From the NCBI GenBank assembly GCA_025362155.1, contig JANYHX010000133.1, positions 1 to 17,642 on the forward strand: DNA of 17,642 nucleotides, written 5' to 3'. The stretch comes from Gallionella sp. Its GTDB lineage: Bacteria; Pseudomonadota; Gammaproteobacteria; Burkholderiales; Gallionellaceae. Of the stretch, positions 242 through 17,642 are shown piece by piece. The translations under genes and the position numbers were made by a program. The notes under the pieces are model-generated. The model saw nothing but the letters and a program-made list of their open reading frames with translations, did no database searches and was not told the DNA's origin. Every line of letters starts with the position of its first letter. The first letter of the stretch is position 1.

Positions 242-943
242 ATGTTACACATCAAAAACAATATTGCCGTCGGCTTGGGATTGGTCGTTTTGCTCACGAC
301 TATGATTGCTTTCGCCCGGAACGAAAATATGAATCCACTTACTGGGCAAATCGGGGTGGACAGTGCTGACGACAGCGCAGAGTCCATCAAGCTACGCAGC
401 GGTTCAGGCGACCCAGTTGTGGGCAAAGAAAAATCCCAGCTATGTCAAGGCTGCCACGGCGAGGAAGGTATTAGCATGGAGGGTCTGATTCCGAAGCTCG
501 CGGGACAATATGGTAAATATATCGCAAAAGAACTCCGCAATTACCAGGCTGGCACCCGTTCCCACCAGATCATGAACGCCATGGCGGCGACGATTAGCGA
601 TGAAGATTTGGCCGATATAGCCGCTTATTTCGCCAGCCGACCGAAAATGAAAGGCAGTGGGTCGAGCAACGAACTCGGAAAGAAATTGTTTACGCAGGGT
701 GATATATCCAGAACGATGGTCGCCTGTATTAATTGCCATGGTGTAAACGGCAAAGGTCTGACCCCGAATACTTCGATGTTCCCGGTAATTGGCGGCCAGC
801 AAAAAGATTACATTCGCCGGCAACTGGTTAACTTCAGGAAAGGTGATCGGACTAACAGCCCGAACGGGATAATGAATAAAATCACTCAGAAACTCACTGA
901 TGACGAACTCGAAGCATTGGCGGAGTATGTTTCAGGACAGTAG
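242..943 (+). CDS. Periplasmic dihaem cytochrome c, c4/c553 type (tandem copy 1)
   Basis: A 233-residue exported electron-transfer protein. Residues 1-25 form a Sec signal peptide ending in AFA. A linker of about 35 residues follows, then two c-type haem domains with CQGCH at 68-72 and CINCH at 162-166. Met114 and Met211, in NAM and GIMNKI contexts, are the likely axial ligands, as in cytochrome c4. The halves share the GQxxYIxxxLxxFxxGxR signature of the family (LAGQYGKYI, IGGQQKDYI). The ATG has a strong Shine-Dalgarno (ggggaggag, 227-235), so the start is secure. It is first of the complete tandem copies and very close to those at 927 and 2397. Cytochromes c4 shuttle electrons between membrane complexes and terminal oxidases. 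The specific partner cannot be read from the sequence. Confidence 0.93.
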   Translation: MLHIKNNIAVGLGLVVLLTTMIAFARNENMNPLTGQIGVDSADDSAESIKLRSGSGDPVVGKEKSQLCQGCHGEEGISMEGLIPKLAGQYGKYIAKELRNYQAGTRSHQIMNAMAATISDEDLADIAAYFASRPKMKGSGSSNELGKKLFTQGDISRTMVACINCHGVNGKGLTPNTSMFPVIGGQQKDYIRRQLVNFRKGDRTNSPNGIMNKITQKLTDDELEALAEYVSGQ

Positions 944-1685
944 AAAATACCCCCAGCCTCTCGCAGACAATGGCATTTTTGATATTAGGAGTAACCTTGC
1001 CATTGGTGGGGCTGCCCTAGTCTTTCTCCTCCTGACCGTATCCTCGTTCGCACAAGATAGCTTCACCAATTTTGCCCAAGGTAACCTGGAAATCACTAAT
1101 GGGGGGGATGACAGCCCAGAGTCAATCAAGCTGCGTAGCGGTGCTGGCGACCCAATCGAAGGCAAGGAGAAATCCCAGTTATGCCAAGGTTGTCACGGAG
1201 AATACGGCATCAGCATTGAGCCACTCATCCCTAAGCTGGCGGGCCAATATGCCTCGTATATCGCAAAAGAACTTCGCAATTACCAAGCTGGCACACGCTC
1301 GCATCAAATCATGAATGCCATGGCAGCGACCATCAATGACGAAAACCTGGCCGATATTGCCGCTTATTTCGCCAGCCAGAATAAAATGAAGGGTGATGGC
1401 TCGGCAGACAACCAGTTCGGCAAGGATTTGTTTTTACATGGTGATCCCTCCAAAATGAGGCTTGCCTGTGTTAATTGCCACGGCATCAAGGGAAAGGGCT
1501 TAGCCCCCACCATGCCAATGTTCCCGGTGATTGGTGGACAACACAAGGATTATATTCGTCGACAACTCATTAACTTCAGGGATGGTTATCGCACCAACAG
1601 TCCAAACGCCATCATGAATCGAATTGCCAGCTCACTAACTGACGACGAAATCGAATCATTGGCGGAATACTCGTCGGCGCAATAG
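927..1685 (+). CDS. Periplasmic dihaem cytochrome c, c4/c553 type (tandem copy 2)
   Basis: A 252-residue paralogue of the preceding gene with the same linker (SPESIKLRSGAGDP) and haem motifs CQGCH at 86-90 and CVNCH at 181-185. The start is uncertain. ATG 927 lies inside the end of copy 1 in another frame and overlaps it by 17 bases. ATG 900 is nine codons upstream with no Shine-Dalgarno. I prefer 927 because the junction before the gene at 2397 has the identical 17-base overlap. The N-terminus is long for a signal peptide: the hydrophobic core is at about 25-42 (LAIGGAALVFLLLTVSSFAQ), after a polar stretch of some 20 residues. Translation is probably coupled to copy 1, since there is no good ribosome site of its own. 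Function is as for copy 1. Confidence 0.88.
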   Translation: MFQDSRKYPQPLADNGIFDIRSNLAIGGAALVFLLLTVSSFAQDSFTNFAQGNLEITNGGDDSPESIKLRSGAGDPIEGKEKSQLCQGCHGEYGISIEPLIPKLAGQYASYIAKELRNYQAGTRSHQIMNAMAATINDENLADIAAYFASQNKMKGDGSADNQFGKDLFLHGDPSKMRLACVNCHGIKGKGLAPTMPMFPVIGGQHKDYIRRQLINFRDGYRTNSPNAIMNRIASSLTDDEIESLAEYSSAQ

Positions 1686-1764
1686 CTCTAAATCTGGGCG
1701 TTCACTGACCAGACAAGCATGGGAAAGCAGTTGTAAGTTTCTCTAAGAAAATTGAAAATATAAT

Positions 1765-1770
1765 GGAGGG
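1765..1770 (+). promoter_or_regulatory. Shine-Dalgarno that fixes the start of the third cytochrome
   Basis: GGAGGG lies seven bases before GTG 1778. The ATG at 1763 overlaps this motif and has no ribosome site of its own upstream. GTG 1778 is therefore the better start and gives a compact signal peptide. Confidence 0.7.
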
Positions 1771-1777
1771 AAAAAAC

Positions 1778-2413
1778 GTGTCTCTCGTTCGAATCAATAT
1801 TACAGCGAGCGTTATTTTGATTTTGCTTTCTTCCACTCCCGCATTTGGAGACGATGATGCAGATGATATTAAACAGCGCATCGGTAAAGGTGATCCAGTC
1901 GCAGGAAAAACAAAATCCGCGTTATGCCAAAGTTGTCATGGCGAGGACGGCAACAGCACGATATCGAGTTTCCCCAAAATTGCGGGGCAATATGCCGCTT
2001 ATATCCAAAAACAGATTAAGGACTTCAAGGCTGGCACCCGCCAGGATCCACTGATGACCGATATCGCATTGACGGTGACCAACGATCAGGACTTGTTCGA
2101 CATTTCAGCTTATTTCGCTAGCCAGAAGCAGATGAAGGGGGCTAAAGCTGTCATTACCAAAGCGGGTCAGAGACGATTTGAGTCTGGGAATGGCTGTCAG
2201 ACGTGTCATGGGATAAAGGGTAAGGGCTTGGCGCCTGACAGCCCATTTGCCCCAGTGATTGGTGGGCAGCATAAAGACTATTTAATTAAGCAGATCACGG
2301 ATTTCAGAAACAACGCTCGTACCAACGAGTCGACCGGTATGATGGGTCTAATTTCCGACCTGATGAGTGACGAGCAAATTGAAGAGATAGCTACCTATGA
2401 ATCAGGATTGTAA
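1778..2413 (+). CDS. Periplasmic dihaem cytochrome c4-like protein (tandem copy 3, divergent)
   Basis: A 211-residue protein starting at GTG 1778 (signal peptide to about residue 24, ending PAFG). Haem motifs are CQSCH at 50-54 and CQTCH at 140-144. Probable axial methionines are Met93 and one of the pair at 188-189. It lacks the long linker between signal peptide and first haem that copies 1, 2 and 4 carry, and it is the most divergent of the set, closest in layout to a classical cytochrome c4. It is separated from copy 2 by 92 bases and has its own strong Shine-Dalgarno, unlike the overlapping copies. Its end overlaps the next gene by 17 bases. Extending to ATG 1763 would add MEGKN before the charged N-region and is less likely. 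Confidence 0.9.
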   Translation: MSLVRINITASVILILLSSTPAFGDDDADDIKQRIGKGDPVAGKTKSALCQSCHGEDGNSTISSFPKIAGQYAAYIQKQIKDFKAGTRQDPLMTDIALTVTNDQDLFDISAYFASQKQMKGAKAVITKAGQRRFESGNGCQTCHGIKGKGLAPDSPFAPVIGGQHKDYLIKQITDFRNNARTNESTGMMGLISDLMSDEQIEEIATYESGL

Positions 2414-3131
2414 AGTTTATACCCTACTGGGGATAAAAAAGTACCTCTATGTTGTCGCTTTTCTGTCATTTAATGCAGCATTCGCTGACACCGAAGTTCC
2501 CTCCCCTTACTCTGCAACTCCCGGCGGACGTGTTAGTTCCAGGGTCGATGCGGAACGTAAAGAGACCATCAGGTTGCGTTACAAAACTGGCAACCCCATT
2601 GCAGGACAAGAAAAATCTCAATTGTGTCAAGGATGCCACGGAACAAACGGGAATAGCACCGATCCTCTTATCCCCAAGCTTGCCGGACAACATATCAACT
2701 ATATCTCCAAACAAATCCGCAATTACCAGGACGGCACGCGCACACACGAAATTATGGAGGCCATGGCATCGACCATTAGTGATGACGACTTGGCGGATAT
2801 GGCAGCCTATTTCGCCAGCCAGAATAAAATGAAAGGGAGCGGCGGGGCAGAAAATCCGCGTGGAAAAGAATTATTTACGCGTAGCGACACCACCAAAATG
2901 GGTATCGCCTGCGTAAATTGCCACGGCGAAAGAGGCAAGGGCATAGAGTCACAAATTTCGGCATTTCCGGTGCTTGGCGGCCAACACAAGGATTACATTC
3001 GCCAACAACTCATAAATTTCAGGAGCGGAGATCGTAGAAATAGCCCTTACAAGATCATGAACCGGATCGCCGAATCGCTGACTGATATTGATATCGAATC
3101 TTTGGCGGAGTATGTTTCTGTACAACCCTAG
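2397..3131 (+). CDS. Periplasmic dihaem cytochrome c, c4/c553 type (tandem copy 4)
   Basis: A 244-residue exported cytochrome. The signal peptide covers about residues 1-30 (core YLYVVAFLSFNAAFA). A linker follows, then haem motifs CQGCH at 77-81 and CVNCH at 172-176. Likely axial ligands are a methionine of the EIMEAMA segment and the one in KIMNRIA. It is closest to copies 1 and 2 (shared SQLCQGCHG, LIPKLAGQ, AAYFASQNKMKG). The start ATG lies 17 bases inside the end of copy 3 in another reading frame, with only a weak purine stretch upstream, so translation is probably coupled. It is the last cytochrome of the array. An out-of-frame ATG at the matching place near its own end opens only an 8-codon frame. 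Confidence 0.92.
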   Translation: MNQDCKVYTLLGIKKYLYVVAFLSFNAAFADTEVPSPYSATPGGRVSSRVDAERKETIRLRYKTGNPIAGQEKSQLCQGCHGTNGNSTDPLIPKLAGQHINYISKQIRNYQDGTRTHEIMEAMASTISDDDLADMAAYFASQNKMKGSGGAENPRGKELFTRSDTTKMGIACVNCHGERGKGIESQISAFPVLGGQHKDYIRQQLINFRSGDRRNSPYKIMNRIAESLTDIDIESLAEYVSVQP

Positions 3132-3567: not shown

Positions 3568-5913
3568 TTATTTTGCTTCTTCACGCCGACGCAATATGTG
3601 CCACAGCCACATACCGAGCAGCAACATGCCCGCCGCGCCCAGCCAAAGCGGCCAGCGCATAGGCTGATTCCAATCGCGCCGCAGTGCATCGCGGCGCTTG
3701 GCATCAATACTCCAGTATTTGAGTTTATTGTTTGCCATCACGTTAGCCTTGACATTACCCAGCCAGCCATGCCGCAACACATAATTTTTTGGATGGTAAC
3801 CCCACAGCCACGGTGAATCATGGCGCACGATTCCCAGCATCCGGTCTATGATCGCCTGACGCGCCGGGCTGTTTTCCATATTTTTCATTTGCTCAAACAA
3901 TTTGTCGTATTCAGGGTTATTGTAATTCGCAGCGTTCTCGCCCCCCTTACTCACCTTGGCTTGCGCGCCGCTCAACAAAAATAAAAAATTTTCCGGGTCG
4001 GGATAATCCGCATTCCAACCGAAGTAGAACATTTGCGTGTCGCCCTTGCGTATTTTGTCCTGAAAGCGATTGTAGTCGGTAGTGCGAGCCACCAGCTGCA
4101 CGTTGATTTTGTCGAATTGTTTACGCAGCCAATCGAGCCGCGACTTGTCCCCCACCCCGTTCGCAGTGGTATCCAGATTAATTACCAGCGGCTGTCGTGT
4201 TTGTGCATCCACGCCGTTCGGGTAGCCCGCTTCGGCGAGCAAACGCTTGGCCGTTTCGATAGGCTTGCGCTTGGGCGCACCATCCACCCAATCGTAAACT
4301 TCGTGATTAATGCCTGCTTCTCCCTCGCGGTAGCCAAAAATACCGGGCGGAATCGGCGCTTGTGCTGCGATGCCGCGCCCGTTCGCAAAAATAGAAATGA
4401 ATTCTTCAAAGTCCACCGCGATCGCAATTGCCTGACGCAGTTTGCGTGCCCGTTCAGGGTTGCAAGATGACTCACTTCGTTTGCTCCCTGTGTCAATTCC
4501 ACGTTCAGCTTGCTGAACAGTGGATTGCCTGCCCTTGGTGCTCCCATCGGGGTAGCCAGCGACTTTGCCGTCGTTTGTTGACGGCTTAGTCGAATGGCTA
4601 GGGGTTTCATCAGAGGGTTGGGGTGGGGGAGCACTTGTTGAACTTGTGCAACCTCCACCCACCGTCGGATCAAGCCAGTTAAATCCGGTATACATGGTAG
4701 AGGTCGCCACCGCTGTCGAAAGCGAAATGTCCTGCGCCTTCATCTCATCGGTCACTGTTGCGTCGCCACTCACATTCACGTGGACTGCCTGGTCGAAACT
4801 GTCAGAACTGATGCCAGAGGCATCGTAATAGCCTTGCAAAAATTTATTCCAGTAAGGAATAGTTTCCTTCTCTAGAGTGAATACGATTTTGTCGATCAGC
4901 GGCAACGGTTTACCTGCATCTGCAAGCAGTCCGGCAGCTGCATCATCCGCCTCACCTTCGGTGGGATAGGTTTCGCTGTCGTAATACGGATTGCGCGTCA
5001 GCACCATGCGCTGGTTGGGATTATTCTCGGATAAATAATACGGCCCGCTGCCCACCGGCCACCAATCCAGGATCAGGTTGCGCTCGCGCATGCCGGTTTG
5101 TGCGTAGAAACGCTCTGCCTCCGGCGGCATCGGCGCAAAGAATGGCATCGCCAGCCAATAAGCAAACTGTGGATACTTTCCGATAATTTCGATGCGATAG
5201 GTGGTGTCATCCACCACCTGTACACCAGGCAGCGGATACTCATTCAAATCGAGAAACGCGTCAGGATTTTTCTTTAGCGCCTGTTGCAGCGTCGCGGCAT
5301 AATCTTTCAAACCGACAATATATTCGTTCATCACGCCTGAGATCGGCGTATGCAATTGGGGGTGAACAAGACGTTTGATCTGATAAACATAATCCGCCGC
5401 GGTGACGGCGCGCGTACCCGTATGCGCAAAATCTTTAAGTGCATGTATGTCGCGCAAATCATGCGGCGTGAGATGGACGTATTCCAGCTTGCCTTGGGCA
5501 TTCGAGTTTAATGGATTCCGGGCAAACGCAGGATGCGGCTGATAGCGCATCCTCGGTTTGAGATGAATCTCATACACGCTGAAGGCAATCTTCTCCGCAG
5601 GTGCAGTGTCCGGCAAGGGCTGGTGATGCTGATCCAGATAACGCACCGTCGGCATAGCACTTGCCGCCAGCGGCACCAGTTGATAAGGACGCTTCAGATA
5701 ATGATATTGCAACGGCGGTGCGTAAATCTGCGCCAGAAACTCATACTCATTTTCGCTGTATGCCTGTGCCGGATCGAGATGCTTGGGACGTTCGGTGAAC
5801 GCAGTATAAAAAATAGACTTGCCCTCGTCCGATGCAGGATAAGGATTATTCCATAACCCACCATCGCAAGCGGAAAGCAACAAGGCTAACAGGGAAGCCA
5901 ACATCATTCTCAT
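3568..5913 (-). CDS. ABC transporter substrate-binding lipoprotein, family 5 (peptide/nickel type), with in-frame insert
   Basis: A 781-residue extracytoplasmic solute-binding protein of the SBP_bac_5 (OppA/DppA-like) family. The N-terminus is a lipoprotein signal with lipobox LLSAC (Cys16), so the mature protein should be membrane-anchored. Family features include TAFTERPKHLDPAQAY near the N-terminus, WWPVGSGPYYL, ARKLRQAIAIAVDFEEF and FGWNADYPDPENF. Unusually, a transmembrane helix ends the protein (WPLWLGAAGMLLLGMWLWHI, then RRREEAK). Residues about 421-486 are a low-complexity Ser/Thr/Pro/Gly insert absent from the family as I know it. No permease or ATPase gene is adjacent, so the substrate is unknown. 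The frame stays open far upstream, but that part overlaps ygfZ. ATG 5949 is an alternative start giving a longer basic N-region. Neither start has a clear Shine-Dalgarno. Confidence 0.85.
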   Translation of the reverse strand: MRMMLASLLALLLSACDGGLWNNPYPASDEGKSIFYTAFTERPKHLDPAQAYSENEYEFLAQIYAPPLQYHYLKRPYQLVPLAASAMPTVRYLDQHHQPLPDTAPAEKIAFSVYEIHLKPRMRYQPHPAFARNPLNSNAQGKLEYVHLTPHDLRDIHALKDFAHTGTRAVTAADYVYQIKRLVHPQLHTPISGVMNEYIVGLKDYAATLQQALKKNPDAFLDLNEYPLPGVQVVDDTTYRIEIIGKYPQFAYWLAMPFFAPMPPEAERFYAQTGMRERNLILDWWPVGSGPYYLSENNPNQRMVLTRNPYYDSETYPTEGEADDAAAGLLADAGKPLPLIDKIVFTLEKETIPYWNKFLQGYYDASGISSDSFDQAVHVNVSGDATVTDEMKAQDISLSTAVATSTMYTGFNWLDPTVGGGCTSSTSAPPPQPSDETPSHSTKPSTNDGKVAGYPDGSTKGRQSTVQQAERGIDTGSKRSESSCNPERARKLRQAIAIAVDFEEFISIFANGRGIAAQAPIPPGIFGYREGEAGINHEVYDWVDGAPKRKPIETAKRLLAEAGYPNGVDAQTRQPLVINLDTTANGVGDKSRLDWLRKQFDKINVQLVARTTDYNRFQDKIRKGDTQMFYFGWNADYPDPENFLFLLSGAQAKVSKGGENAANYNNPEYDKLFEQMKNMENSPARQAIIDRMLGIVRHDSPWLWGYHPKNYVLRHGWLGNVKANVMANNKLKYWSIDAKRRDALRRDWNQPMRWPLWLGAAGMLLLGMWLWHILRRREEAK
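4458..4653. repeat. Probable in-frame inserted element inside the substrate-binding protein gene
   Basis: About 196 bp bounded by GGTTGCA (4458-4464) and its inverted copy TGCAACC (4647-4653). Inside are two more inverted repeats: GTTCAG/CTGAAC at 4503-4518 and GCCGTC/GACGGC at 4567-4585. In the host frame it encodes about 66 low-complexity residues (S, T, P, G, N rich) between LDPTVGG and ERARKLRQAI, two segments normally close together in this family. Other frames are also open across it (a second minus frame from 4673 to 4182 and a plus frame from 4565). No target-site duplication is obvious and no second copy lies in this window. The boundaries are inferred from the repeats and from memory of the family. 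Confidence 0.5.
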
Positions 5914-6028
5914 GATGCGAAGTTTAACGGAATAGCGTAAGCGCGTCATAGTCCAAGTTGACATACCCGGTGCATTGAACAACACTATGTGGCAATTTAT
6001 TGGCACTTCTACTACACACAAAAATACT

Positions 6029-7063
6029 ATGAATCCAGACTGGCAAAATTTTCTGTCGCAACATGGCGCGGTCATTGATGCGGGCGTGGTGCGCTTTGGC
6101 GACCGTACCGCCGAGCTGAAAGCAAGCATACAAAATACAGTGTTGTGCGACCTGAGCCATTTTGGGACCTTGCGCGTGTCCGGCGATGAAGCGCAATTGT
6201 TTTTGCAAAACCTGTTAAGTAACGACATAGGTGAAGTCAGCGCTACCCGCGCACAACTCAGCAGCTTCAACACCGCCAAGGGGCGGATGCTCGCGAGCAT
6301 GCTGATCTGGCGCGACGGCGACGATTATTTGCTGCAATTGCCGCAGGTGCTGTGCGAACCGATACGCAAAAAATTGAGCCTGTATATATTGCGCGCCAAG
6401 GTGAAAATTACCGATGCAAGCAACGAAATCATTTCACTTGGGCTGTCAGGCACAAATGCGCAGGAAGTTTTACGTGAACAGTTCGGTGAATGGCCAGAGC
6501 TTCCATTTGGTGTCATTACTACCTCACAAGGCAGCGCGATAAAAATCGACGACGCCACACGTTTGCAAATTAACACCACGATCCAACATGCCCCCGCTCT
6601 ATGGGAAGAACTCAGTCAGCAGGCGCAGCCGGTTGCCAATAGTTGTTGGGACTGGCTTAATATCCGCTCCGGAATTCCATTCATTTTGCCGCAGACGCAG
6701 GAACAGTTCGTCGCGCAAATGGTGAATTTCGATCTCATTGGTGGCGTGAATTTCAAAAAAGGCTGCTATCCGGGACAGGAAATCGTGGCCCGCATGCAAT
6801 ATCTCGGTAAATTGAAACGGCGTATGTATTTAGCGCATATCAAGGACGGCTCTCCTGAGGCAGGCGACGAATTATTCAGCGCAGATATGGAAGGCCAAGC
6901 CAGCGGCATGATAGTTAATGCTGCTCCCCATCCCACTGGCGGTTATAACATGCTCGCGACAGTGCAAATCGCCAGCCGGGAAATGCAGTCGATACATTGG
7001 AAATCCTTGCAAGGCGAGATATTGCAATTTTTGCCGCTGCCCTATTCTCTACCCGACGCATAA
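6029..7063 (+). CDS. ygfZ: YgfZ/GcvT-fold folate-binding protein for Fe-S cluster assembly or repair
   Basis: A 344-residue protein of the YgfZ/CAF17 family, related to the aminomethyltransferase GcvT. It binds tetrahydrofolate and helps maintain some [4Fe-4S] enzymes in the cytoplasm. The diagnostic motif KGCYPGQE is at 244-251 with the key cysteine at 246, followed by IVARMQYLGKLKRRMY. The N-terminal part has the typical CDLSHFGTLRVSGDEAQLFLQ and NTAKGRMLASMLIW segments. ATG 6029 (MNPDWQNFLSQHGAVID) matches the usual family start. The in-frame ATG 5975 would add 18 residues without family resemblance. The gene is divergent from the substrate-binding protein across about 115 bases that must hold both promoters. 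It faces the GNAT gene tail to tail. An Fe-S role suits a chromosome rich in redox proteins. Confidence 0.92.
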   Translation: MNPDWQNFLSQHGAVIDAGVVRFGDRTAELKASIQNTVLCDLSHFGTLRVSGDEAQLFLQNLLSNDIGEVSATRAQLSSFNTAKGRMLASMLIWRDGDDYLLQLPQVLCEPIRKKLSLYILRAKVKITDASNEIISLGLSGTNAQEVLREQFGEWPELPFGVITTSQGSAIKIDDATRLQINTTIQHAPALWEELSQQAQPVANSCWDWLNIRSGIPFILPQTQEQFVAQMVNFDLIGGVNFKKGCYPGQEIVARMQYLGKLKRRMYLAHIKDGSPEAGDELFSADMEGQASGMIVNAAPHPTGGYNMLATVQIASREMQSIHWKSLQGEILQFLPLPYSLPDA

Positions 7064-13175: not shown

Positions 13176-13849
13176 ATTGAAACACCCAGCTCCGCGCACA
13201 GCTTGCCCATCTTCGTCCGCAGCTCGCTTACCTCCGCTTCGAGCTTGGCGACGTTGGCCTTGAGCGCAGCAATTTCACCCACCGTCACATCCCCTGAGGG
13301 GGCAGCAGATGCGGCTGCGGTGGCCACGCTTTCATCAATGACAGGTACGCCGGAGAGCAGGTGCACCCAGCGGTTTTCTCGCGAGCCGGGCTGGCGTGGC
13401 AACTCCATCACCAGGGCACCCGCCTCGCGCTCAGTCAACTCAACCAGAAAACTTTCGACTGAAGAAATGTCCGCAAACTTGTGCAACCTTTCGCAATTGA
13501 TGCGTAACTCCCCCGCCGTCTGTGGGCCACGCAACATCAGCATGGCCAGCAAAGCGGTTGATTGCGTGGGAATGTGCAACACCCGTTCGATGTTGTGCCC
13601 ATAACGTGTAGCCCTTCCTCCGCTGGTTTCCACGATCAGTGACAATGTCCTCAGGCCATCCAGCGCCACCTGCACTTCCGATTCAGAAGCCTCGATAACT
13701 GGGTCACGGCTGCTCTTCTGGTTGCAACCCGACACCAGAGAATTCAGTGTCATCGGATAACTGTCCGGCACCGTGCGCTGCTTCTCGGCGAGCACGCCGA
13801 GGACGCGCGTTTCAAGGAGTGAGAGGATCGGGAGAGTTGTGGTCATCAA
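13172..13849 (-). CDS. yceH: YceH family (DUF480) protein
   Basis: A 225-residue cytoplasmic protein of the YceH/DUF480 family. The N-terminus LETRVLGVLAEKQRTVPDSYPMTLNSLVSGCNQKSSRDPV is the family hallmark (ExRVLGxLxEKxxTTPDxYPLTLNxLxxACNQKxxRxPV). Two winged-helix-like domains follow, then LLMLRGPQTAGELR. The last 40 residues are a coiled coil (GEIAALKANVAKLEAEVSEL). The molecular function of YceH is not established. The first of two adjacent ATGs (13849) overlaps the djlA stop by four bases, so the two genes form an operon. Its 3' end enters a 21-bp tandem repeat, and transcription probably ends at the bidirectional terminator near 13013. Confidence 0.93.
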   Translation of the reverse strand: MMTTTLPILSLLETRVLGVLAEKQRTVPDSYPMTLNSLVSGCNQKSSRDPVIEASESEVQVALDGLRTLSLIVETSGGRATRYGHNIERVLHIPTQSTALLAMLMLRGPQTAGELRINCERLHKFADISSVESFLVELTEREAGALVMELPRQPGSRENRWVHLLSGVPVIDESVATAAASAAPSGDVTVGEIAALKANVAKLEAEVSELRTKMGKLCAELGVSI

Positions 13850-14619
13850 ATATTCCTGTTCTTCTTGATCAGGTCGTGGGCAAGCTGGATTTCTTTTGCC
13901 TGCTCGGTTGCCATTAAAATCATGTCTTCCGGCACACCTTGGCCAATCAGCTTGTCCGGGTGATATTGGCTCATCAGCTTGCGATAGGCGCGCTTGATCT
14001 CGGCATCACTACTGTCTTTGCTTACACCCAAAGCTTTATACGCGTCGTCCAACGCGGTGGCTGCATTTGCTTGCCCGCTGGCGAAGTGCGATTGATTCAA
14101 CACCATGTCCAGCATCTGTTTGAACGCGGCCTGGTTATAGCCAAGACGAACAGCGATGTCAGCGAGCAACGCTTGCTCAGCCGGATGAAAATGTCCATCT
14201 GCCAGCGCCATCACGATCAGATAAACCAGCAATACCTGCTTCAGGTCCTTCGTATGCCCGCAAATTGCCATGAATCTTTTATAGGTCTGCTCAATGTCAA
14301 ACGCCGGTTCAGCCCCCTGCTTGAACAAGGCAATCGCCTGCTGGCGATGCCCTGCAGTCATATTCAGTTTTTGCATGAGCTGTTCGACATGAGCGATCTC
14401 ATCCTGGGAGACATGCCCATCCGCCTTAGCCAGCTTTCCCATCGAGATGAACACTGTCTCAAGGAACACGGCCTGGCGCAGCGCATTCTGCAACGGGTTC
14501 ATCCCACCGGAGCCATATGCCCTCATGCGATCGAAAAATGACCCGACAAACAGGCCGAACAGTGCCCCGAAGAATCCGAAAAAGTAATAACCTGCAATGA
14601 CGCCAATGAGCTTAAACAA
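13846..14619 (-). CDS. djlA: DjlA-like membrane-anchored DnaJ co-chaperone
   Basis: A 257-residue type III DnaJ protein. Residues 1-27 form one glycine-rich transmembrane helix (FGALFGLFVGSFFD), like the dimerising helix of E. coli DjlA. A TerB-like central domain follows at about 50-180 (MGKLAKADGHVSQDEIAHVE, then ALADGHFHPAEQALL). The C-terminal J domain is at about 191-257 with the HPD motif at 220-222 (YHPDKL). It should stimulate the DnaK ATPase at the inner membrane. No ATG is available. TTG 14619 has GGAG five bases upstream and gives an E. coli-like N-terminus, so I chose it. TTG 14661 is in frame but falls next to the likely transcription start. It overlaps yceH by four bases. Confidence 0.9.
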   Translation of the reverse strand: MFKLIGVIAGYYFFGFFGALFGLFVGSFFDRMRAYGSGGMNPLQNALRQAVFLETVFISMGKLAKADGHVSQDEIAHVEQLMQKLNMTAGHRQQAIALFKQGAEPAFDIEQTYKRFMAICGHTKDLKQVLLVYLIVMALADGHFHPAEQALLADIAVRLGYNQAAFKQMLDMVLNQSHFASGQANAATALDDAYKALGVSKDSSDAEIKRAYRKLMSQYHPDKLIGQGVPEDMILMATEQAKEIQLAHDLIKKNRNI

Positions 14620-14669
14620 GACAACTCCAGAGAGAGAATATTTGAAGAACAGCCGCGACAAAGGCGCAC

Positions 14670-14675: not shown

Positions 14676-14777
14676 CCTTCATCAGATTGCACCATAGATT
14701 TGTCAATCGGTGTTGCGCGTCAACAGTAAGGACAGGTAACGACACATTCTAGAACTTCAGATTTCCTCAAAGCAGAC

Positions 14778-14839
14778 TGTCAACGTGGAGCTAAGGAGCT
14801 GCGCGCTTTTGCGCAGTCCGCTTGAGCGCAGGGTTAGGT
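14778..14839 (-). other. attC recombination site of cassette 3
   Basis: On the minus strand it begins with ACCTAAC (containing the stop codon of the gene at 15241) and ends with GTTGACA, a diverged R' core. Between them CTCAAG and CTTAG arms flank a GC-rich hairpin with an AAAA loop. On the plus strand the CTTGAGC arm has one base more than its partner GCTAAG, the extrahelical base typical of attC. It is the last attC before the djlA upstream region. Confidence 0.8.
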
Positions 14840-15241
14840 TCCACTTTCATGGCATGTAACCGCAATGAATAGAAAAGGATTGCCCACTACAACCGACTCA
14901 ATGAGGTGTGGCCCTTGTCCATCTGTATACCGACGAAGGGCATAGGAACCAGTAACAGTGTTCTTGCCCTCATCGCTGAAAAGGTTGCGCATTGTTCCGT
15001 TGACTCGGCCACCTTTAAGTGTACCCGTCAATTGGTGAGATATTTGTCCTTCCATTCTCTCATCAAACATTTGCACCTCCAAATTGCCTTTGCTTTCATG
15101 GAGAGTGGCATTGCCTGAAACGGTAAACCAAGCTGGTTTTGGCACTGCGTAGCCAAGGACAAACTTGCAAGAACGATCTGCCGCATGAGCAGTGGTTATT
15201 TGACATAGCGTCAACAACATAACGGTAGACATGATCTTCAT
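14834..15241 (-). CDS. Cassette 3: secreted protein of unknown function
   Basis: A 135-residue protein with a Sec signal peptide (residues 1-20, core STVMLLTLCQITTAHA, cleavage before ADRSC). The mature part has two cysteines (CKF near the start, VTCHES near the end) that could form a disulfide. It is rich in polar beta-type sequence (SGNATLHESKGNLEVQMF, LTGTLKGGRVNGTMRNL, NTVTGSYALRRYTDG), so a small beta-sandwich or barrel is plausible. I recognise no family. The stop codon lies in the core of its attC site, and the gene begins 43 bases after the R' core of the previous attC. ATG 15232 is a possible alternative start. No clear Shine-Dalgarno is visible. A coding cassette is likely because the frame fills it. 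Confidence 0.75.
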   Translation of the reverse strand: MKIMSTVMLLTLCQITTAHAADRSCKFVLGYAVPKPAWFTVSGNATLHESKGNLEVQMFDERMEGQISHQLTGTLKGGRVNGTMRNLFSDEGKNTVTGSYALRRYTDGQGPHLIESVVVGNPFLFIAVTCHESGT

Positions 15242-15277
15242 GGCATTGTCCGATTAACTAGAAGCAGGCTCTGTGGA

Positions 15278-15340
15278 GCCTAACGTGGGGCTAAGGGTCT
15301 GCGCGCTTTTGCGCAGTCCAGCTTGAGCGTAGGGTTAGGG
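15278..15340 (-). other. attC recombination site of cassette 2
   Basis: On the minus strand it begins CCCTAAC (containing the stop codon of the gene at 15682) and ends in GTTAGGC, a perfect GTTRRRY core. The arms, hairpin and bulged base match the site at 14778, and the central CGCGCTTTTGCGCAG is identical in both on the plus strand. A 6-bp hairpin (AGGCTC/GAGCCT, 15266-15281) overlaps the R' core. Confidence 0.85.
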
Positions 15341-15682
15341 TTGTTTTTTGCTGGCATTAATGGCCACGAATATATGAACTAACAGGGAGATAGCCATGAT
15401 GATGCAAGCCAACACAGCACCGATGGCAATGAGAATATCAAATTTTGATGGGGCAGCTTTGTCTAGAGCGAAATTTATCAAAATGACCACGTAAAATAGG
15501 AGAGCTAGTATGTCAAAAATTACTGCACGATTGGTTTTGTTAAATGCTGTTTTGACTATAGCGGCAATGGTCTTGGCAGCCGCAGTGTTTTTCACTAATG
15601 CAACCGTCCACCTCCATAAATCCTTAGCGATTATAGTTATAAGTGCGGTAACTGCAATTGTCACAAGTTGCATTTTATCCAT
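15335..15682 (-). CDS. Cassette 2: small integral membrane protein of unknown function
   Basis: A 115-residue hydrophobic protein with three likely membrane helices, at about 5-20 (QLVTIAVTALITIIAK), 54-73 (VIFDILALLFYVVILINFAL) and 83-109 (DILIAIGAVLACIIMAISLL). A basic, alanine-rich loop (ALVKNTAAAKTIAAIVKTAF) joins the first two. There are no recognisable catalytic motifs or family signature. The base composition is AT-richer than in the flanking chromosomal genes, as often found in cassettes. The stop codon TAA is part of its attC core. ATG 15682 lies 28 bases after the R' core of the preceding attC, with no strong Shine-Dalgarno. The in-frame Met at residue 4 is an alternative. Small membrane proteins are common in cassette arrays. 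Confidence 0.75.
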   Translation of the reverse strand: MDKMQLVTIAVTALITIIAKDLWRWTVALVKNTAAAKTIAAIVKTAFNKTNRAVIFDILALLFYVVILINFALDKAAPSKFDILIAIGAVLACIIMAISLLVHIFVAINASKKQP

Positions 15683-15709
15683 GATTAAACGATTGACCCA
15701 TAAGCAAGA

Positions 15710-15768
15710 ACCTAACGTGAAGCTAAGGGGCGCGCTTTAGCGCGTCCCGCTTGAGCGCAGGGTTAGCC
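15710..15768 (-). other. attC recombination site of cassette 1
   Basis: On the minus strand it begins GGCTAAC and ends in GTTAGGT, a perfect GTTRRRY core. The hairpin is slightly shorter than in the other two sites (GCGCTAAAGCGC) but the CTCAAG and CTTAGCT arms are conserved. The initial 7-mer is the exact reverse complement of GTTAGCC at the 5' boundary of the same cassette (16378-16372), as expected for one circularised cassette. Confidence 0.85.
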
Positions 15769-16358
15769 TCTTGCGCATCAGTTTGTTGATGAGTTGCGAA
15801 GCGTGCCCAATCGCTTCCGTATGCTGCGGCAGGAATAAGAAGCATGACCCCGGCCGTAAATCCATGGCTGTTAACAGCCAAGTGACCTTCCGTTCGGTAT
15901 AGATCAATGGCTCCGGAGCCAAATGCAGCAACATTATCACCACTCATGTCGCCACCTTGCGCAACGCTAAGCACACCATTGTGACAAGTGAACTCTCTTT
16001 TTGCTTTGTCGTATGACCATTGCTGATTAATGTTATTGCCGCTTGCCGTTACAGTAAGTAACACATCATTGGTGAGGTCAAGCTTAACGATTTGAGCTCT
16101 AAAAAGGTCATCCCACATTTTTTGACGAGACAGTCGTTCCTCACTTGTTTGTGAACTTTTCGTGGGTTTCAGCCAAGTGGCCAAATATACTACTGTCCCG
16201 TCCGGTTTTTCCCCCTTGTTATCATATACACCATCAATCGAAGGGCAATCATCTTGGCGAGCGCTAGTGGTGGTTTGACCCCACGATGCAGGATATTGCT
16301 CGACATGAACACAAGCGCTTAGCAGTAGAGCCGTTAATACAATCGAGAATCGATGCAT
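15723..16358 (-). CDS. Cassette 1: putative lipoprotein of unknown function, reading through its attC
   Basis: A 211-residue protein with a lipoprotein signal peptide (MHRFSIVLTALLLSAC, lipobox LLSAC, Cys16). The mature part contains CPSIDGVYDNKGEKPDG, a pattern I associate with small lipoproteins in cassette arrays, and later a second cysteine (FTCHNGVLSVAQGGD). No catalytic domain is recognised. ATG 16358 has AGGA six bases upstream and lies only 13 bases after the cassette boundary, so it is the cassette's natural start. The frame does not stop before the attC but runs through it. The last 14 residues (ANPALKRDALKRAP) are translated attC sequence, with the stop in the L' arm. It is the first cassette from the presumed promoter side, hence probably the best expressed. 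Confidence 0.78.
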   Translation of the reverse strand: MHRFSIVLTALLLSACVHVEQYPASWGQTTTSARQDDCPSIDGVYDNKGEKPDGTVVYLATWLKPTKSSQTSEERLSRQKMWDDLFRAQIVKLDLTNDVLLTVTASGNNINQQWSYDKAKREFTCHNGVLSVAQGGDMSGDNVAAFGSGAIDLYRTEGHLAVNSHGFTAGVMLLIPAAAYGSDWARFATHQQTDAQEANPALKRDALKRAP

Positions 16359-16371
16359 GTCGAATCCTGAG

Positions 16372-16530
16372 GGCTAACAGTTATTCACCAGACCCACGGG
16401 TCTGTACTATTAAAAATAGTGTGGAATGCATAGTTTCAATAAGCGATTGATTTATTGAAGTTCCCAAAATCTATTGTTCCTCATATGCATAATAGTATGG
16501 ACAGGAGCGAATGTCTCCTTGTGGCTGCGG
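16372..16530 (-). other. Cassette boundary and possible attI/leader region
   Basis: GTTAGCC on the minus strand (16378-16372) is the recombination core at the 5' end of cassette 1. What lies above it is not an attC: there are no L'/L'' arms. It holds a 7-bp inverted repeat CAGACCC/GGGTCTG (16389-16404). A TTGAAA (minus, about 16438-16433) with a TTTAAT about 19 bases on could be a weak cassette promoter. The position fits attI plus leader, but no attI consensus can be confirmed. No convincing gene is seen here. Confidence 0.4.
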
Positions 16531-17642
16531 ATTCAACCGGTCAATGCAACATACTAGAATCTGCGTAAGCAGAAGAAGGAGTGTTGCAGATGAAACAAAG
16601 ACCACGGATCTATTACACGGAAACCCAGAAAGCGCTAATGTGGGAGCGCTGGCGAAAAGGCGAATCTCTCCAGCAGATCGCAAAGTTGTTTGATCGAAAT
16701 CACTCTTCAATACAACGTATTTTGGCCGAGAGTGGTGGGATACGACCGGCGCAGCGACGTCGTTCGAGATTAGCGCTGACGTTGGCTGAACGAGAAGAAA
16801 TATCGCGTGCAGTGGTGGCGGGGCAGTCGATTCGCTCGATTGCAACGTCCCTCGGGCGGGCACCATCCACGATCAGTCGTGAGTTTAAGCGCAACGGTGA
16901 CCAGGAATGCTATCGGGCGGGTGAAGCCGACCAAGCGGCCTGGGATCGGACGCGTCGTCCCAAGACCTGTAAACTGGTGGAGAACAGAACGTTGGCGCGC
17001 ATCGTGGCAGGGAAGCTCCAATCGCAGTGGGCACCGGCGCAAATTGCTGGATGGCTGAAACGCACTTACCCGGATGACGAGAACTATCAGGTGTCACACG
17101 AGACCATCTATCGCAGCCTCTTCATTCAAGCCCGTGGGGCGCTGAAGAAAGAGCTGGTGCAGCATTTGAGGCGCACACGAATCATGCGCCGCTCGCGCCA
17201 TCATACGCAGAAGACAGACAACCACGGCAGAATTACTGATACGGTATCAATCAGTGAGCGCCCGGCCACGGTGGCAGATCGGGCGATACCCGGACACTGG
17301 GAAGGTGACCTAATATGCGGAAGCGGGAACAGCCAGATTGCGACCCTCGTTGAACGTCATACACGCTATGTGATGCTGGTGAAGGTCGCCCGCAAAGATA
17401 CCGAAACTGTCATCAACGCGCTAATCAAAAACGCTCGCAAGTTACCGCATGAACTCTACAAGTCGCTGACCTGGGATCGGGGAAAAGAGATGGCCGACCA
17501 CAAGCGCTTCACCTTGGCGACCGATATCCAGGTCTACTTCTGTGACCCGCAGAATCCCTGGCAGCGTGGGAGCAATGAGAATACGAACGGGCTATTGAGG
17601 CAGTACTTCCCCAAGGGAACCGACATTTCGGCCTACTCGCAG
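16531..17642 (+). mobile_element. IS30-family insertion sequence, right end beyond the window
   Basis: The left end is placed near 16531 at ATTCAACCGGTCAATGCAAC, which resembles terminal inverted repeats of IS30-family elements and lies 59 bases before the transposase start. The transposase frame runs to the window edge. Without the right inverted repeat the exact end and any target duplication cannot be confirmed. Confidence 0.65.
16590..17642 (+). CDS. IS30-family transposase (3' end outside window)
   Basis: The frame is open for 351 codons from ATG 16590 to the window edge, with AGAAGGAG as ribosome site. Two helix-turn-helix segments lie at the N-terminus (about 22-48, ESLQQIAKLFDRNHSSIQRI; and about 75-110, GQSIRSIATSLGRAPSTISR), as in IS30 transposases. 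The catalytic triad is Asp240 in HWEGDLICG, Asp296 in TWDRGKEM and Glu330 in GSNENTNGLLRQYFPKGTD. There are 33 residues between the second Asp and the Glu, giving the DD(33)E spacing of this family. All catalytic residues are inside the window and intact, so the element may be active. Family members are usually a few dozen residues longer, so only a short C-terminal part is missing. It is transcribed away from the cassette array. Confidence 0.95.
   Translation, partial: MKQRPRIYYTETQKALMWERWRKGESLQQIAKLFDRNHSSIQRILAESGGIRPAQRRRSRLALTLAEREEISRAVVAGQSIRSIATSLGRAPSTISREFKRNGDQECYRAGEADQAAWDRTRRPKTCKLVENRTLARIVAGKLQSQWAPAQIAGWLKRTYPDDENYQVSHETIYRSLFIQARGALKKELVQHLRRTRIMRRSRHHTQKTDNHGRITDTVSISERPATVADRAIPGHWEGDLICGSGNSQIATLVERHTRYVMLVKVARKDTETVINALIKNARKLPHELYKSLTWDRGKEMADHKRFTLATDIQVYFCDPQNPWQRGSNENTNGLLRQYFPKGTDISAYSQ

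Follow-up and report, generated by a model that had tools for sequence, protein, structure and literature searches.

An integrase-less cassette array, probably seated in an orphan attI site, in a Gallionella genome

We describe an array of three integron gene cassettes, all in one direction and each with an attC site, on the minus strand of a 17,642 b stretch of Gallionella DNA (the window, which is the whole of contig JANYHX010000133.1, here C18, of a 330-contig draft assembly that is 87.8% complete). From its sequence and that of its relatives we judge this array probably to be a cluster of attC sites lacking an integron integrase (CALIN) that occupies an orphan attI site. A leader stands before its first cassette and a trailer follows its last attC, so the array seems to be enclosed by the halves of one attI that has no integrase gene (intI). 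The recurrence of this leader and trailer around cassette arrays is a feature that goes beyond the first-pass annotation of this DNA. The parts of the array are as follows (ORF, open reading frame; R1, the attC covariance model described below):

16378..16525, minus: leader, putative left half of the orphan attI-like site; the cut is at G16378 and the first cassette base is T16377
15716..16377, minus: cassette 1, 662 bp, between the G^TT at 16378 and the G^TT at 15716
15723..16358, minus: cassette 1 ORF, 211 aa, lipoprotein-like, lipobox LLLSAC
15710..15768, minus: attC1, 59 bp; R1 63.9 bits, E 6.5e-14
15284..15715, minus: cassette 2, 432 bp
15335..15682, minus: cassette 2 ORF, 115 aa, membrane protein with hydrophobic windows that begin at residues 4, 50-60 and 76-94
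15278..15340, minus: attC2, 63 bp; R1 61.6 bits, E 2.4e-13
14784..15283, minus: cassette 3, 500 bp
14834..15241, minus: cassette 3 ORF, 135 aa, with a signal that looks Sec-like by eye and a predicted beta meander of eight strands
14778..14839, minus: attC3, terminal, 62 bp; R' is GTTGACA, the putative right half of the insertion site; R1 57.7 bits, E 2e-12
14723..14784, minus: trailer, putative right half of the orphan attI-like site, starting exactly at G14784

The cassettes and their attC sites

The covariance model R1 was built from 24 attC sites on congener contigs that carry an intact or broken intI, with the window excluded; its 13 base pairs, 6 of which show compensatory changes, form the R''/R' stem, an unpaired spacer and an L''/L' stem with one unpaired base. 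The first-pass annotation had placed an attC-like palindrome after each of three minus-strand genes and had proposed a covariance search for them, and R1 finds all three, at 14778, 15278 and 15710 (57.7-63.9 bits, E 6.5e-14 to 2e-12); with the filters off, the next match in the window is the reverse strand of attC2 (14.0 bits, E 0.09). The three sites, each at E 2e-12 or better, are the attC complement of a CALIN, and the limits first given for the array, 14778..16378, also held, position 16378 being the G that precedes the first cassette. The R' of attC3, GTTGACA, has the form expected at the end of the array, where the insertion site would resume with its far half. No Rfam family reached its gathering threshold in the window, although whether Rfam holds an attC family was left unchecked.

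The same genome has four more R1 matches, on contigs C199, C221 and C315 (loci L193, L194 and L195), and attC sites are present in 67 of 76 genomes of the genus, the window genome counted (R1, E <= 1e-4). A strict attC pattern is also found in loci L141, L164, L175 and L186, from assemblies labelled Anaerolineae, Nitrospinota, Desulfuromonadales and Nitrospirae; these could be either transfers or misbinned contigs.

No intI adjoins the array within the contig, as it would in a complete integron. A profile search of the assembly gave no match over the cut-off of TIGR02249, the integron integrase family, in agreement with the earlier remark that no integrase was in view; the best matches below the cut-off, on contigs C63 and C261, we take to be XerC/D. 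Integrases over this cut-off occur in 38 of the 76 genus genomes (the window genome is among the 76). The genomes G063 and G067, each consisting of one contig, contain 17 and 18 attC matches (E <= 0.01) and lack an intI match at E <= 1e-40, so integrase-less arrays there are not an effect of assembly.

The three cassette proteins were first described as unrecognised, and so they proved: searches of Pfam, PADLOC and PHROGs gave nothing at E 0.1, and no NCBIfam family came close to its cut-off. With the window entries counted, 4, 8 and 4 related proteins were found for cassettes 1, 2 and 3, mostly on short contigs; those of cassette 1 (P0001-P0004) lie solely on contigs of 0.9-3.1 kb, and those of cassette 2 are P0010-P0016. 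The cassette 1 protein, the one cassette product searched in this way, had no match among 75 other congeners at E 1e-5. Cassette 2 gave 85 pattern matches in GTDB genome contigs, none of them confirmed, in a collection from which the window's own or very near records are possibly absent. From the sequences and their hydropathy it is reasonable to read all three products as located in the envelope, as had been proposed, given the lipobox LLLSAC of the first, the hydrophobic segments of the second and the Sec-like signal of the third. Structure models (mean pLDDT, the predicted local distance difference test score, 76 for cassette 3 from 4 sequences and 63 for cassette 1) suggest that the products of cassettes 1 and 3 may be small beta barrels; Foldseek returned calycin-like barrels, among others, at template modelling (TM) scores of about 0.2-0.5, and we did not accept these as identifications. 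The C-terminal residues of the cassette 1 lipoprotein (about NPALKRDALKRAP) are encoded by the attC itself, at 15723-15768.

A recurring leader and trailer

The leader is the 148 bp between the end of an insertion sequence of the IS30 family (below) and the first cassette. It is 82.7% identical over 133 bp to a stretch of locus L163 and 81.5% identical over 124 bp to one of locus L182, two loci that were originally collected for their attC sites only, and in both of them it stands directly before the first cassette, each time in a different chromosomal context. A weaker copy is present in L143 (E 0.035). A sequence-only model, R2, made from these four leaders (window, L163, L182 and L143) finds copies in 91 of the 158 genomes from the Gallionellaceae, probably a family of iron oxidisers, and in 11 of its 15 genera, with a maximum of 8 per genome (E <= 0.01; some are short or weak). 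Around copies of about 58 bits or more, among the matches listed and with the window's left out, we took 80 regions, which hold 82 copies; a hidden Markov model (HMM) of these 82 non-window leaders matches the window at 16504-16374 on the minus strand with 119.6 bits (E 1.2e-36), and its runner-up in the window is the same place on the other strand (E 0.0033).

The leader copies stand in front of cassettes. An attC lies downstream on the same strand in 60 of the 82, always within 2 kb, and in 56 of the 67 that have at least 2.5 kb of downstream sequence; one lies upstream on the same strand in 4 and on the other strand in 3. The sequence held in common also ends where a cassette would begin. 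When all ordered pairs of copies, window included, are aligned, 5845 alignments span the leader; 5038 of them stop between -5 and +4 nt relative to its end, and six alignment rows (three pairs) continue more than 40 nt beyond it. For 73 of the 82 copies an anchored profile could be made; in it each of the positions -7 to -2, +1 and +2 carries 1.45-1.82 bits of information, and no position from +5 onward exceeds 0.4 bit (the anchor is the T and G of the cut, whose 2 bits are by construction). Thus the common sequence stops at the G^TTRRRY cut point, as an attI does.

Some of the leaders have an integrase next to them. In L245, L289, L290 and L293, from three genera, a distinct integrase that we call IntI-B aligns over its full length directly upstream of the leader and divergent from it (in-frame stops were looked for in L293, whose gene is open), and L254 has a 107-aa IntI-B remnant upstream of its leader. 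For the other 77 copies, tblastn found no integrase in a stretch that mostly reached up to 2.5 kb upstream and in a few cases was far shorter (6 nt in L317). At L245, L289 and L293 an attC lies downstream; the L290 contig stops after another 415 bp. Compared with three other Gallionella integrases, IntI-B shows 49-52% identity. The leader family therefore lies between intI and the first cassette at the IntI-B loci, though not in the window copy, and this adjacency together with the stop at the cut point gives the leader the position and the boundary of an attI. We also considered whether it might be the attI of the common Gallionella integrase, and rejected this: a comparison by eye shows different sequences, and searching the loci of the common intI with an HMM built from three leaders gave no match at E 1 or better. 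Two further candidates were set aside. One was a degenerate attC or non-coding cassette (there is no RYYYAAC partner by eye, no match to the attC model, and folding is weak), and the other was a short reading frame that is conserved in three copies, which was dropped because its start codon is missing in many of the 82.

Covariation was seen in two tandem hairpins near the leader cut, where we counted 34 two-sided-change cells compared with 15.7 +/- 3.2 in shuffled data (none of 500 shuffles was as high); the number of pairs with a two-sided change was reached by 51 of 500 shuffles, and relatedness among the copies inflates counts of this kind. The leader may in addition carry the cassette promoter. 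Two leader copies lie no more than 1.5 kb apart in L265 and in L313, and those in L313 are divergent. We found no blastn match of the leader on plasmids or phages, and no match in viral contigs with two exact patterns.

Many arrays continue GTTGAMNGTCTGCTTT... beyond the last attC, and in 24 of the 60 leader copies with an attC the last R' begins GTTGA. A trailer HMM made from 21 of these arrays, without the window, has a single match in the window at E <= 10 (E 4.1e-5), so that the putative other half of the site follows the last cassette there. In the 80 regions it has 47 matches (E <= 0.05), 37 of them downstream of a leader on the same strand, and these serve 37 of the 82 leader copies; 15 of the 37 are outside the training set, although one of these 15, in L300, closely duplicates an array used in training. 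Some arrays (L081, L281 and L289) end instead in a second type of trailer (GTTGANNNTGTAGAAAAAC).

In 165 kb of control loci chosen for other reasons (mismatch-pattern, Xer and TerB-DnaJ loci, among them L023, which does contain an attC) no match of either HMM was as high as 17.7 bits, and the trailer HMM gave a single one, of 14.4 bits. In 636 kb of loci chosen for attC sites, matches of at least 17.7 bits numbered 5 for the leader HMM and 4 for the trailer HMM, several of them from overlapping loci.

Origin of the array and alternative explanations

On the far side of the leader the window continues as follows:

16526..17642, plus: IS30-family element inserted at the leader's outer edge and truncated where the contig stops; its transposase at 16581-17642, plus

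The transposase belongs to the IS30 family (NF033563, 271.7 bits with a cut-off of 80), and the contig ends inside this element, 1.1 kb beyond the leader. The terminal repeat at 16526-16551 is shared with contigs C319 and C152, which were considered as the continuation behind IS30 and not taken as such because the IS30 ends are only 88% identical over 64 bp.

A motif, GGAGACATTCGC, derived from the consensus of the leader copies, stands just upstream of the window leader without a mismatch. With up to 3 mismatches it is present in 46 of 77 integrase-less copies (the window included and one copy with short upstream sequence left out), in none of the 5 copies that stand beside IntI-B or what remains of it, and in none of 79 control stretches; a second motif, GTGCCAGAAG, is less telling (50/77 vs 19/79 controls). 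The exact GGAGACATTCGC makes the window look integrase-less at the place where intI-B should begin, with IS30 just outside it, and an upstream edge of this integrase-less type argues against an intI hidden behind IS30. L281, which has no intI, and L293, which has IntI-B, share an upstream gene; in L281 their homology reaches to within about 15 bp of the leader, and in L293 it stops about 1.2 kb short of it, with intI in the gap. Among the 79 leader copies with enough flank, window included, there are 64 different upstream contexts.

We propose that an IntI-B integron would have lost its intI, leaving behind the leader and trailer that together make up one attI, and that copies of this integrase-less unit would have come to lie at many chromosomal positions. 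Cassettes could have been inserted by an IntI, before its loss or in trans, through attC x attI recombination at the G^TT, and in the window lineage an IS30 would have landed at the outer edge of the leader; the array should now be immobile unless an integrase is supplied. As to how the unit might spread, inverted-repeat-like ends, TCGGCCKGAA and TTCMGGCCGA, occur with one mismatch in 10/81 and 7/38 copies and in 0/75 and 0/34 controls, and with two mismatches in 22/81 vs 14/75 and 20/38 vs 7/34. Such ends, in a minority of the copies, suggest as a lead only that the leader-trailer unit is mobile. It is possible, although we hold this quite tentatively, that the Gallionellaceae have miniature integrons of this kind, dispersed non-autonomous attI sites with inverted-repeat ends that are loaded in trans by a rare IntI-B, one integrase serving several attI sites per genome. 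An empty leader-plus-trailer unit would be roughly 200-300 bp long by our estimate.

Several observations weigh against an array in an orphan attI. No empty site, with leader joined directly to trailer, was seen, and 22 of the 82 leader copies have no detected attC downstream, 11 of them with at least 2.5 kb of sequence there. The GGAGACATTCGC motif is missing from 31 of the 77 integrase-less copies. Ten of the 47 trailer matches are misplaced (3 upstream and 7 on the other strand), several of them weak, up to E 0.05. Part of the evidence is circular, since R2, the model used to find and align the 82 copies, had the window in its training set, and a GTTGA ending was the criterion for choosing the 21 arrays behind the trailer HMM. 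The window genome is a draft at the completeness given above, so an intI could lie elsewhere in it. Against the attC sites themselves, their single-strand folding energies taken alone are modest (z -1.43, -2.41 and -0.79), and the minimum-energy fold of attC3 differs from the canonical stem.

Four other explanations were weighed. The leader and trailer might be a dispersed repeat or small transposon that is a preferred landing site for cassettes and no true attI, which we think unlikely. Up to 8 copies per genome, and the inverted-repeat-like termini of some, are what a repeat would show, but in three genera and at four loci the leader holds the attI position beside IntI-B, the common sequence stops at the cut point, and being a repeat and being an attI are not mutually exclusive. 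It is also rather improbable that this is an ordinary sedentary chromosomal integron cut by assembly, with its intI just past IS30 and the contig end. The contig does end within a repeat, half of the genus genomes (38/76) have an intI over the cut-off, and CALINs are over-counted in draft assemblies according to the part of PMC9024848 that we draw on; against this, the assembly contains no intI over the cut-off, the leader is unlike the sequence beside the common Gallionella intI and matches that beside IntI-B, and the upstream form in the window (GGAGACATTCGC) is the integrase-less one. The first-pass annotation had left the choice between a CALIN and the start of a chromosomal integron with intI beyond 17642, and of these the CALIN is the likelier, the integron start being disfavoured by the leader type and by GGAGACATTCGC.

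We consider it very improbable that the cassettes were inserted off target, at an arbitrary chromosomal site of the attG type, by an integrase encoded elsewhere. Insertion at attG and the CALINs that result are described in the portions consulted of PMC12901181, PMC12444791 and PMC8618304, and the spot upstream of the TerB-DnaJ gene that flanks the array is variable in the genus; yet the genomic target here is not a non-conserved one, since leader and trailer recur, and about 130 bp of leader together with a trailer, common to arrays at dozens of loci, would be unexpected for arbitrary sites. That these are fixed chromosomal genes split by palindromes merely resembling attC, as the modest folding energies might suggest, is hardly credible, given that a model from intI-bearing contigs finds all three sites, that near-identical sites lie in cassette arrays of other genomes, and that the cassette 1 protein is unmatched in the other congeners.

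A CALIN in an orphan attI thus remains the reading we prefer. On this reading integrase-less arrays can be linked with an insertion site that recurs and with the lineage of integrases standing next to that site, and one locus is seen both in a form that has intI and in a form that lacks it. Were the sites active, several landing pads in one genome could be served by a single integrase, in contrast with the customary pairing of one attI and one intI.

Flanking genes and comparison with known systems

Beyond the trailer lies a chromosomal gene outside the array:

13846..14661, minus: flanking gene with TerB and DnaJ domains

It was matched in 30 of 40 other congeners. What precedes its promoter-like GGTATAATG on the upstream side varies by eye among congeners, with a few groups alike (e.g., L042 and L043). 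Farther off, four successive ORFs at 242-3131 (plus), some of them overlapping, have two CxxCH motifs each and by eye resemble tandem di-haem c-type cytochromes. A long ORF at 3568-6300 (minus) resembles by eye an ABC-transporter substrate-binding protein; it bears a long extension at its N terminus, and an unusual Ser/Pro/Thr-rich stretch lies in mid-protein.

Loot et al. 2024 (Nat Microbiol) reportedly describe attG sites as targets that have diverged from classical att sites. The present arrays are like attG insertions in having cassettes away from intI and unlike them in that about 130 bp is conserved.

CALINs were already known; the dispersed family of orphan attI sites carrying them is the part that appears to be new, in that our literature search, which reached few subscription papers, found no report of a dispersed family of integrase-less attI sites. 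The window array is like a CALIN in having at least two attC sites in one direction, and no intI is in view up to the contig end. The sections of PMC8618304 used here propose that CALINs arise by off-target insertion, by loss of intI or by rearrangement, and the window array differs from CALINs as described there in having on either side one half of an attI-like site that recurs.

In Xanthomonas, as the part of PMC12444791 at hand describes it, the integron is ancestral, intI has often been lost and CALINs are found at other loci in about half of the genomes. Gallionella resembles this in its genus-level integron, its frequent lack of intI and its CALINs elsewhere, whereas the Xanthomonas CALINs are described in that part as lying near particular genes, without a conserved leader or trailer. 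Another likeness is to the Shewanella prophage M16-3, which has a CALIN with its own attI (PMC9892861, as far as the excerpt used goes); a proper attI stands at the head of that integrase-less array, as one probably does in the present case. In that excerpt M16-3 is a single case, in one prophage and beside a complete integron, whereas the orphan leader described here is found in 91 of 158 family genomes, often several times in each, and mostly without a neighbouring intI.

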